Assembly: GCA_003576905.1 (NCBI GenBank)
Contig: QEVG01000008.1
Coordinates: 1 to 64,000, forward strand
Direction of reading: 5' to 3'
Length of the DNA stretch: 64,000 bases
DNA from: Planctomycetota bacterium
Lineage (GTDB): Bacteria > Planctomycetota > Phycisphaerae > UBA1845 > UTPLA1
The notes beneath the pieces were generated by a model. The model ran no database searches. It saw only the letters and a list, made by a program, of their open reading frames with translations, and was not told where the DNA came from. Position numbers and translations under genes: made by a program. Positions 5,415 through 47,132 of the stretch are shown here, one piece after another (positions within the stretch are counted from its first letter, which is position 1; the number at the start of each line of letters is the position of its first letter).

Positions 5415-5885
5415 GGCAGCAGAGCGGGCCGGGCGGCCGCCCGGGGCATGATCTCCGGGAGGAAAGTCCGAACTGGCCAGGGCACGGTGATGGCTAACGG
5501 CCACCGGCAGCAATGCCAGGGAAAGTGCCACAGAAAAGACACCGCCGCCCGCGGGAAGGGTTTCGGCCCGACCGCGGAGGCAAGGGTGAAAAGGTGCGGT
5601 AAGAGCGCACCGCGCGTCCGGTGACGGGCGCGGCAGGGTAAACCCCACTGCCAGCAAGCCCGCGTAGGCAACGAAGAGGCGACGGCGCACCCGGATTCAC
5701 TGGGATCCCAGGCGCCGCCACGCTTCGCGAGGCGGCCCGTCTCGCGCGTCCGCGCCGCAGGTCGGCCGGGCGCATCGTTGCGGGTAGGGTGCAGGAGCCG
5801 GCGGGTAACCGCCGGCCTAGAGAAATGGTCGCCGCCCGCGCGCGAGCGTGGGAACAGAATTCGGCTTATGGCCCGCTCTGCCGCC
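5415..5885 (+). ncRNA. rnpB: RNase P RNA (M1, bacterial type A)
   Basis: The catalytic RNA that matures tRNA 5' ends. The diagnostic GAGGAAAGTCCGAACT block occurs at 5459-5474, followed by the CCACAGAAAA block near 5527. The 3' conserved core is TAGAGAAATGGTCGCC near 5818 and ACAGAATTCGGCTTATG near 5854. Helix P1 closes perfectly: 5421-5430 pairs with 5870-5879, and pairing continues outward with a mismatch. The molecule, near 465 nt, is longer than the usual 350-400 nt; most of the extra length appears to be GC-rich hairpin material between 5690 and 5790, in the P12 position. Both ends are approximate by a few bases. Confidence 0.96.
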
Positions 5886-44971: not shown

Positions 44972-45145
44972 CTCGTGACAATCGCCCGACCACAGTTAGC
45001 CCTTACGGGGCGGGCTTGCCGGCAAACGTGCCGTTCGGCGCACAACCGAGAGACATGTCGCCCGCTCAAGACCGGAGCGCCCTGGGGAGCCCGTCGGCCC
45101 GTCGTGAAGGTCTGTATTGTTGGTGCGAAACCGGCCCGCCAGCCA
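44972..45145. other. Gap upstream of the candidate RNA gene
   Basis: About 170 bases with no gene or clear terminator. Only short inverted repeats are seen. Confidence 0.3.
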
Positions 45146-45174
45146 TTGACACGTAAGGTTAAACGCTATATAAT
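45146..45174 (+). promoter_or_regulatory. Perfect sigma70 consensus promoter of a candidate RNA gene
   Basis: TTGACA at 45146-45151, exactly 17 bases, then TATAAT at 45169-45174. A perfect match to both boxes with ideal spacing is rare and usually seen at strong stable-RNA promoters. Transcription should start near 45181. Confidence 0.85.
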
Positions 45175-45180
45175 GTTAAC

Positions 45181-45428
45181 ATAGGATGGGCGAATATGTC
45201 CCTTCCTAGGGGGAATCCTCCCGGGGCGTGTGTTGGGCGGGGTTCATCCGGTTTGTGATTGGCGCGAGAAGAGAGAAATCGCGCCCTTTGCGGCATACGA
45301 TGAAATATCCAGCGTGAGTTCAACCGGCCGCAAGCCCCGGCCGATGCCACACTGGAGACAAATAAGCTTCCACTCGCTGCGGCACCCTTTGACCGCGCCA
45401 ATACCACGGGGTGCCGCACGCCTTTTTT
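45181..45428 (+). ncRNA. Candidate structured non-coding RNA, about 250 nt, 6S-like rod shape possible
   Basis: A transcript from the perfect promoter would end at the terminator at 45379-45428. The sequence lacks a sensible reading frame. A perfect 7-bp hairpin occurs at 45261-45267 / 45279-45285 (GGCGCGA/TCGCGCC). The two halves can pair as an irregular rod: 45228-45232 with 45348-45352, 45239-45242 with 45335-45338, and 45248-45253 with 45322-45327. A long irregular rod is a feature of 6S RNA, which mimics an open promoter, but the family could not be fixed by eye; tmRNA and SRP RNA signatures are absent. The core would be about 200 nt before the terminator stem. Confidence 0.6.
45379..45428 (+). 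terminator. Intrinsic terminator of the candidate RNA
   Basis: A perfect 9-bp stem (GCGGCACCC at 45379-45387 with GGGTGCCGC at 45409-45417) with a 21-base loop is followed by ACGCC and a run of six T at 45423-45428. Confidence 0.75.
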
Positions 45429-46079
45429 ACTCCTTTCGAAGTTGCTTTTGCGGGCCGCCTTTGTGACGGCTTGGATGCGCTCGCGTGCCCGCCGGCGGCA
45501 CGGGGATTCGATTACCGCCACGCAACGCGGTTCCGAAAGATCTATGCAATCCGGGGCGAAAAATCCCAGGCGGCATCCGCCTCGGCCACCATCGAGTACC
45601 CGGCAATTACGCAGCGGCCTTGGATCGGGTCCGGCGGCGTGTTGCCCGCGCACAATCGGCCGGGCGGCAGTTCGTGTCACTTGTCCGAGGTTCCTCGAAA
45701 TTCGAGCACGGGCTGCCCGCGGAGATGGTTTTTTCACTGTTCGGGGCGAATTCCTGAACCCGCCCGACTGCACGGCGCTATAAGTTCTCGCTTGAATCAC
45801 CCAGACTGGTTTGGCCGGGTGTGGGCCAGCGGCCGCCTCGCAGGTTGACCGGGCCAGCGCAGGGCCTTACGATCCCGCCTCGCCGAATCGCGGTTTCGGA
45901 GTGCATCCAACCTGCCGCGGTTGTGTGACCTGGAGTAAGTGCGGACCGGCGCGGTGTCCGCTAAGTTACGATCGTCCGCTCATCCGGCGGGCCGATCATT
46001 AAGAAGCAGCCCCGCCAGTAGACCGGCATCACGGCATAGCCTGTCCGCGGACGGCTGATGTGAATGGACAATTCCCAGA
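45429..46079. other. 651-base region without a recognised gene
   Basis: Several open frames occur but none has family-like sequence, a good ribosome-binding site or consistent codon use. A perfect 6-bp hairpin GCGGAC/GTCCGC sits near 45937-45962. The promoter of the desaturase operon should lie toward the right end; none stands out. Confidence 0.4.
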
Positions 46080-47132
46080 ATGAAAATCCCTCACGCTCTC
46101 GTTTCCGTCTGGCGCTGGTTTGACAATCAGGCCGCAGATATCACGGTCGATGACAATGAGCCGCTGACCACCGACTGGGTCCGCATCATCCCCTTTCTGG
46201 CCATGCACGCGATGTGCCTCGGCGTGATCTGGGTCGGCTGGAGCCCTGTCGCCGTCGGCGTGGCCATCGCCCTGTACTGGGTCCGCATGTTTGCGATTAC
46301 CGGGTTCTATCACCGGTATTTCTCGCACCGCACATTCAAGACGTCACGTTTCTGGCAGTTCATGTTCGGCCTTCTGGGCTGCACGGCGACGCAGAAGGGT
46401 CCGCTCTGGTGGGCGGCGCACCATCGCCACCACCACCGGCACTCCGACGATCCCGAAGACGTTCATTCGCCGCACACACACGGGCTCTGGTGGAGCCACA
46501 TGGGCTGGATCACATCGCGCAAGATGTTCCCCACGAACTACAAGGCCGTGCCTGATCTGGCGAAATTCCCCGAGCTGGTTTTCGTCAACCGCTTCGACCT
46601 GCTCATCCCGGTGCTCTTCGCCGCGTCGATCTTCCTTTTCGGCGTCGCGCTGAATTTCTTCTGGCCGCAGCTTGGGACGAGCGGATCCCAGATGCTCATC
46701 TGGGGCTTCTTCATCTCCACGGTGGTCCTCTTTCACTGCACCTGTACCATCAACTCGCTTGCTCATCTGATCGGCCGCCGGCGCTTCGCGACGAAGGATG
46801 AAAGCCGCAACAGCCTCTTCCTCGCGATCATCACCATGGGCGAGGGCTGGCACAACAATCACCACCATTACCCCGGCGCGGTCCGCCAGGGCTTCTACTG
46901 GTGGGAGATTGACATGACCTATTACATTCTCCGAGGCATGGAGAAGCTGGGTATCATCTGGGATCTGAACAAGGTTCCCGAGACGGCCCTGAACCTCAAG
47001 CGGCTCGACAACCCGGCAAGCCTGACCGACGACTCCGACGGCGCCCGCGAAACAAGCGACCACCGCGCCGGCGAGTCCTCCGGCTCCCTCGTCGACGCCC
47101 TGCCGCGTCTGCCCGCCGTACGCCCCACATGA
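46080..47132 (+). CDS. Acyl-CoA/acyl-lipid desaturase (Delta9 type)
   Basis: A 350-residue membrane di-iron desaturase that introduces a double bond into fatty acyl chains. All three histidine boxes are present: HRYFSH near residue 78, HHRHHH near 114 and HNNHHHYP near 258, between four main hydrophobic stretches. The acyl-CoA desaturase pattern GFYHRYFSHRTFKTSRFWQF is intact. The C-terminal 45 residues are polar and not conserved. It is the first gene of the seven-gene operon through 52888; the next gene starts inside its stop (ATGA overlap 47129-47132). Confidence 0.94.
   Translation: MKIPHALVSVWRWFDNQAADITVDDNEPLTTDWVRIIPFLAMHAMCLGVIWVGWSPVAVGVAIALYWVRMFAITGFYHRYFSHRTFKTSRFWQFMFGLLGCTATQKGPLWWAAHHRHHHRHSDDPEDVHSPHTHGLWWSHMGWITSRKMFPTNYKAVPDLAKFPELVFVNRFDLLIPVLFAASIFLFGVALNFFWPQLGTSGSQMLIWGFFISTVVLFHCTCTINSLAHLIGRRRFATKDESRNSLFLAIITMGEGWHNNHHHYPGAVRQGFYWWEIDMTYYILRGMEKLGIIWDLNKVPETALNLKRLDNPASLTDDSDGARETSDHRAGESSGSLVDALPRLPAVRPT

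Follow-up and report, generated by a model that had tools for sequence, protein, structure and literature searches.

A candidate regulatory RNA of one Planctomycetota order with complementary sites between mraZ and rsmH

We analysed a 64-kb stretch of planctomycete DNA (the window, 64,000 nt) and followed up a segment at 45146-45428 on its forward strand. Judged from the sequence, 45181-45428 is an RNA gene with a promoter and a terminator of its own, and its predicted transcript comprises a variable 5' domain and a conserved 3' module. The features are as follows.

45146..45151, + strand: -35 box TTGACA, exact consensus; the promoter recurs in homologues
45169..45174, + strand: -10 box TATAAT after a 17-nt spacer, exact consensus; the promoter recurs in homologues
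45181..45428, + strand: predicted transcript of ~248 nt, its start deduced from the promoter and its end from the T6
45181..45366, + strand: variable 5' domain, which folds; its sequence and rod are without clear conservation
45367..45375, + strand: conserved linker CTTCCACTC preceding the hairpin, from an alignment of 85 distinct sequences
45368..45378, + strand: proposed seed TTCCACTCGCT, complement of AGCGAGTGGAA sites in the mRNAs of relatives
45376..45387, + strand: 5' arm of the terminator stem, from alignment and pairing analysis
45391..45401, + strand: loop segment GACCGCGCCAA containing the invariant ACCGCGCC (45392-45399), from invariant columns; possible second seed
45409..45421, + strand: 3' arm of the terminator stem with 45419 bulged, from alignment and pairing analysis
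45423..45428, + strand: T6 of the intrinsic terminator, from the sequence

An earlier, sequence-only reading of this DNA had described an exact-consensus promoter here, and this was borne out: TTGACA-17-TATAAT at 45146 is the sole exact match on either strand of the window, where 0.0004 would be expected from base composition, and no other site on either strand lies within one mismatch of the consensus promoter at spacer 17. The GC stem with T6 that it named as terminator is also present, as a 12-bp stem (45376-45387 with 45409-45421, 45419 bulged) followed by T6 at 45423-45428. As to the roughly 250 nt that it described as lacking a sensible reading frame, one forward frame is open across the segment, with no stop past the first codon, but single-base differences in loop length among the conserved modules of relatives argue against a conserved protein and a coding role. 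The description as a self-contained RNA gene agrees with what we found, namely an own promoter, an own terminator and no Rfam match.

The identity of the RNA was examined with covariance models, as the sequence-only reading had proposed, and no Rfam family matched 45146-45428. In the whole window, only an RNase P class A RNA (5421-5883, + strand, 236 bits) reached its gathering score. Within 45000-45600, three matches at E<=10 were obtained, all to animal or archaeal families and far below the cut-offs, with none to 6S RNA (RF00013) at this threshold, and the models of tmRNA (RF00023) and SRP RNA (RF00169) gave no match at the locus. The window genome has all three elsewhere: a 6S RNA matching RF00013 at gathering score on another contig (G000:C48:9418-9614), SRP RNA on contig C33 and tmRNA on contig C35. 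The reported absence of tmRNA and SRP RNA signatures was thus correct, and 6S, tmRNA and SRP RNA were rejected as identities of the locus, which matches none of the three; each is found elsewhere in the same genome. 6S matches (E<=1e-3) were found in 34 of 61 genomes examined, and in three relatives (G001, G002 and G003) the match lies far from the place of this RNA.

Homologues were searched with 45146-45440 as query in 200 genomes including the window's own, matches at E<=1e-6 being taken as strong. Strong matches came from 101 of the order's 114 genomes (G000-G113; the order belongs to Planctomycetota), and the other 86 genomes gave none at E<=1e-3. Nine genomes behind named loci were examined too, and three of them matched strongly. 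Outside the window, the matches were confined to query positions 208-294, that is, to the 3' end. A covariance model of the module, run on 392 genomes of the phylum, gave one strong match, that of the window itself, and two weak matches (E 0.002 and 0.008); this search scored 13 candidates per genome, and weak homologues may be missed. The collection of loci numbered 105, with a single locus from each of the 101 genomes and, in addition, four that are second copies or fragments. We aligned 103 of them (the contig-edge fragments L189 and L194 were left out), which gave 85 distinct module sequences. The 3' 62 nt (45367-45428) are almost invariant across the order and consist of the linker CUUCCACUC, the 12-bp terminator stem, a loop with the invariant ACCGCGCC and usually a T tract. 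Pairing is kept in 99.9% of the alignment cells of the stem, and five cells in two pairs are compensatory; covariation is thin because the stem sequence hardly varies. The RNA is single-copy in most genomes. Diverged second copies of the module lie beside a closer one in three genomes, at L190 (G113), L191 (G022) and L195 (G093), and in L195 a C-G pair of the stem has become U-A.

The 5' domain behaves differently from the module. The window RNA has a predicted fold of -102.3 kcal/mol (z -2.19; 5 of 200 shuffles equal or better), in which the irregular rod of the sequence-only reading does appear, with 41 pairs. In two congeners, however, only 19 and 20 of these pairs can form, against 10-18 for slid-partner controls, so that the rod lacks clear conservation. 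The check which that reading had put forward, whether relatives keep the stems, came out positive for the terminator stem and not for the rod. Over 85 loci, the 5' domains are on average more stably folded than their shuffles (mean z -1.96, with 42 of 85 below -1.64; the window's own is -1.51), and their sequence aligns poorly even inside the family. A 5' hairpin common to the genus had no support against slid controls. Averaged over the predicted folds, the module is exposed at the linker and the loop, with a mean unpaired probability of 0.51-0.75 for the linker and 0.78-0.99 for ACCGCGCC; the window RNA itself is predicted to have the TTCCA of its linker largely in pairs (unpaired 0.09-0.29) and the loop open. 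By eye, we also spotted a possible pseudoknot of the loop with ATTGGCGCG in the window's 5' domain.

The promoter is a general feature of the homologues. A search with a sigma-70 matrix placed a sigma-70-like promoter (score >=11) at most 300 nt upstream of the module in 86 of 103 homologues; among control windows, the same score was reached by 4 of 102 taken further upstream and by 2 of 98 taken downstream. L189 was left out of this count, as was L184, whose upstream part is short. Between the best-scoring promoter and the module there are roughly 40-260 nt, and the predicted RNA length over 85 loci is 99-321 nt (median 132). Neighbour genes, called here and around the sites below with crude callers of our own, are common within families and different between families, on either strand, the pattern expected if the gene was inherited vertically and has changed place. 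Four loci of genus g19 in family f8 (L007, L008, L010 and L020) share an upstream stretch GGTGGGCAA ... TTGCCAATCACC and have a sigma-70 score <10; their RNAs may be longer or differently controlled.

In several relatives, the homologue search gave a second, short match limited to the linker and the 5' stem arm, and most of the twenty weak second matches that we examined were of this kind. At these places the mRNA strand carries the linker's complement close to genes, in repeated cases in the mraZ-rsmH gap or ahead of genes for polyhydroxyalkanoate (PHA) storage. Across 113 genomes of the order, CCGCAGCGAGTGGAAG with at most one mismatch has 315 matches, about 100 of which are the RNA genes themselves, against 61 for the reversed word; we give this excess no weight because coding sequence contributes to it. 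We annotated 97 sites, made up of 17 second-match loci and 80 sites among the CCGCAGCGAGTGGAAG matches listed, which run into family f8 and end before f1 (L236-L238 were left out of the site table). Of these, 53 lie in coding sequence, 10 antisense to coding sequence and 34 between genes, while 6 of 30 control sites were intergenic. Among the 34 intergenic sites, 16 adjoin mraZ and five are in PHA loci. Proteins sampled at the mraZ loci were confirmed as MraZ (PF02381) and MraW/RsmH (PF01795); those sampled at the PHA loci were acetyl-CoA acetyltransferases and class III PhaC, and the PhaR matches were weak and below cut-off. By our gene calls, the site ends 23 nt (L224), 22 nt (L233) and 29 nt (L378) before a thiolase start; for the PhaR-like gene of L337 the distance is 45 nt and for phaC of L230 it is 79 nt. 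At L223 the site lies about 190 nt before phaC within a called upstream ORF; all PHA sites were drawn from site-selected loci alone. Sites in nrdJ (L219, L358, L364, L366, L367 and L370) and in genes of TPR-type proteins are in-frame coding sequence, and we rejected them, by eye, as protein-motif coincidences. At L311 (G068), a seed complement follows a GroEL-like gene and precedes a DnaJ-like gene by 119 nt, both genes being named by eye.

Regions downstream of mraZ were then collected independently of any site. A protein-family search found MraZ in 105 of 113 genomes, from which we took the best 30 by MraZ score and 20 from further down the list; several genomes whose mraZ regions were already known to bear a site were skipped among the added 20, and this selection therefore works against the hypothesis. 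The region was defined as the 420 nt downstream of the mraZ stop, and 49 were usable; L396, with 74 nt left on its contig, was dropped, and it also holds a seed complement. The commonest 9-mer in these regions is AGCGAGTGG, the seed complement, present in 15 of 49 on the mRNA strand and in 0 of 49 on the opposite strand, and the next three commonest overlap it. None of 2000 permuted 9-mers reached this count. In a background of 1240 windows from the flanks of the RNA loci, AGCGAGTGG occurred in two (Fisher p 6e-21, uncorrected for relatedness; the genomes are related, and p values here are too small). Matches of at least 13/15 to the seed were found in 17 of 49 mraZ regions vs 1 of 1240 background windows, and those of at least 12/15 in 19 vs 11; duplexes with p<=0.05 by shuffling were also obtained in 19 of the 49. 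The sites of at least 12/15 lie at +21 to +61 in family f8 (8 of 15 regions), at +235 to +251 in f4 (6 of 17) and at +83 to +185 in f5 (3 of 4), and f1 has them in 2 of 10; the same mraZ-rsmH gap is matched at different places in different families. No such site was found in the single genomes of f3, f6 and f7.

The terminator loop gave a weaker signal. Its complement GGCGCGGTC is present in 7 of 49 mraZ regions vs 17 of 1240 background windows (p 2e-5), and one permuted word reached 8; the excess is weaker than that of the linker because GC-rich words vary more. The GGCGCGG words in f1 lie partly inside local hairpins, as seen by eye, and reversing GGCGCGG gives the same word, hence no control. 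In f4, mraZ-rsmH regions such as L401, L397 and L403 have loop complements GGCGCGGT at +321 to +326, near the predicted rsmH start.

The pairing signal is not uniform. No site was found in 30 of the 49 mraZ regions. Conversely, six genomes have an mraZ site and no detected RNA (G048, G057, G107, G060 at L359, G081 at L375 and G098 at L369); several of these assemblies are incomplete, with listed completeness of 72, 55, 87, 84, 89 and 76%, respectively.

Taken as a whole, the sequence evidence points to a trans-acting, base-pairing small regulatory RNA of one Planctomycetota order that targets mraZ-rsmH, in the division and cell-wall (dcw) cluster, and PHA messages; we consider this reading likely, and hold the PHA messages less surely as targets than mraZ-rsmH. 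A sigma-70-type promoter would give an RNA of ~248 nt ending in the almost invariant 3' module. Its linker, running into the foot of the stem, would pair as a seed with AGCGAGTGGAA sites in mRNAs, which in relatives occupy the mraZ-rsmH gap, at the start of the dcw cluster, and are also found ahead of genes for PHA storage (thiolase, phaC and a PhaR-like gene). By pairing close to start codons or between mraZ and rsmH, the RNA would affect the translation or the decay of these messages, and repression is our guess for the sign of the effect. The linker appears to be the best-supported seed, the loop may serve as a second one, and the 5' domain would be free to change. We advance only tentatively the fuller model that the linker and the terminator loop act as separate seeds coupling division and wall synthesis, through mraZ-rsmH, to PHA storage, with the seeds frozen while the 5' domain, the genomic place and the target positions drift.

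Other explanations account for parts of these data. The module might mainly be a protein-binding site, in an order-specific scaffold or protein-titrating RNA for which mRNA pairing is secondary. The stem arms and the loop are almost invariant, beyond what pairing of the linker requires, and one copy per genome is the rule, both of which would suit such an RNA; protein binding alone does not, however, predict that the commonest 9-mer downstream of mraZ should be the seed complement, on the mRNA strand only, and we regard this explanation as unlikely. The direction of control could also be reversed, with the mraZ-rsmH transcript and other leaders acting as a sponge that titrates or degrades the RNA, whose real targets would differ. 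This would fit the f8 sites, which lie just past the mraZ stop and often far from rsmH, where a block of initiation is unexpected, but the PHA-locus sites 22-79 nt before start codons are placed as in direct regulation, and the sponge appears somewhat less probable still.

Two further possibilities concern the locus itself, and we give both very little credence. A cis-acting leader or terminator of a neighbouring gene would be compatible with the next gene in the window, a fatty acid desaturase at 46080 on the same strand; it is very improbable given that neighbours vary between families and lie on either strand while the module stays unchanged and has its own promoter and terminator. Slightly more improbable is the divergent 6S RNA of the sequence-only reading, or a second 6S RNA that would mimic a promoter and bind RNA polymerase. 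The length is similar to that of 6S RNA, and the strong promoter and partly rod-like predicted fold would fit, but the separate 6S gene in the same genome and in relatives, the lack of a family match at E<=10 and the absence of clear conservation of the rod all speak against it. The RNA is thus probably a gene regulator and not 6S.

Known systems resemble the proposed base-pairing RNA by target class only. StsR of Rhodobacter sphaeroides is reported as a trans-acting sRNA of 72 nt under RpoHI/RpoHII control that influences division by binding both UpsM and the 5' UTR of dcw (PMC8307010, PMC5089854). The window RNA and its homologues are likewise predicted to act in trans at the head of the dcw cluster; StsR binds the 5' UTR upstream of mraZ, whereas the sites seen here in relatives lie in the mraZ-rsmH gap, and the promoters here are sigma-70-like. 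MmgR of Sinorhizobium meliloti, of the alpha-r8 family, is described as limiting PHB storage post-transcriptionally and affecting phasin levels (PMC8401924). Carbon-storage messages are putative targets here too, but the sites precede thiolase, phaC and a PhaR-like gene, and the phyla are unrelated. By analogy, the RNA most likely works like StsR and possibly like MmgR. The table of a 2022 review counts eight distinct annotated sRNAs for the whole Planctomycetes-Verrucomicrobia-Chlamydiae group (PMC9029176), and neither this RNA nor any sRNA with its target in bacteria of this kind was described in the portions of the open-licence PubMed Central literature consulted. A small RNA found across an order, whose proposed seed has hardly changed and whose complementary site recurs at the head of the division cluster, offers a testable entry to the post-transcriptional control of division, and perhaps also of storage, in uncultured planctomycetes.

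In the window's own genome, the mraZ gap (L422) has no site, the best match being 9/15. With two mismatches allowed, the genome holds 17 seed complements, including the RNA itself, vs 11 for the control, a slight excess, and its sole intergenic match with a single mismatch (L430) lies 144 nt before a gene. The two f1 sites at mraZ are both from the window's genus, in G001 (13/15, duplex p 0.01) and G002 (12/15, duplex p 0.31). The window genome's mraZ locus (G000:C45) and other f1 mraZ loci show, by eye, a stem-loop GCGGAAGGAG ... CTCCTTCCGC about 50-95 nt past the mraZ stop. It recurs in f1 genomes without a seed site and is perhaps another control element of the dcw cluster.
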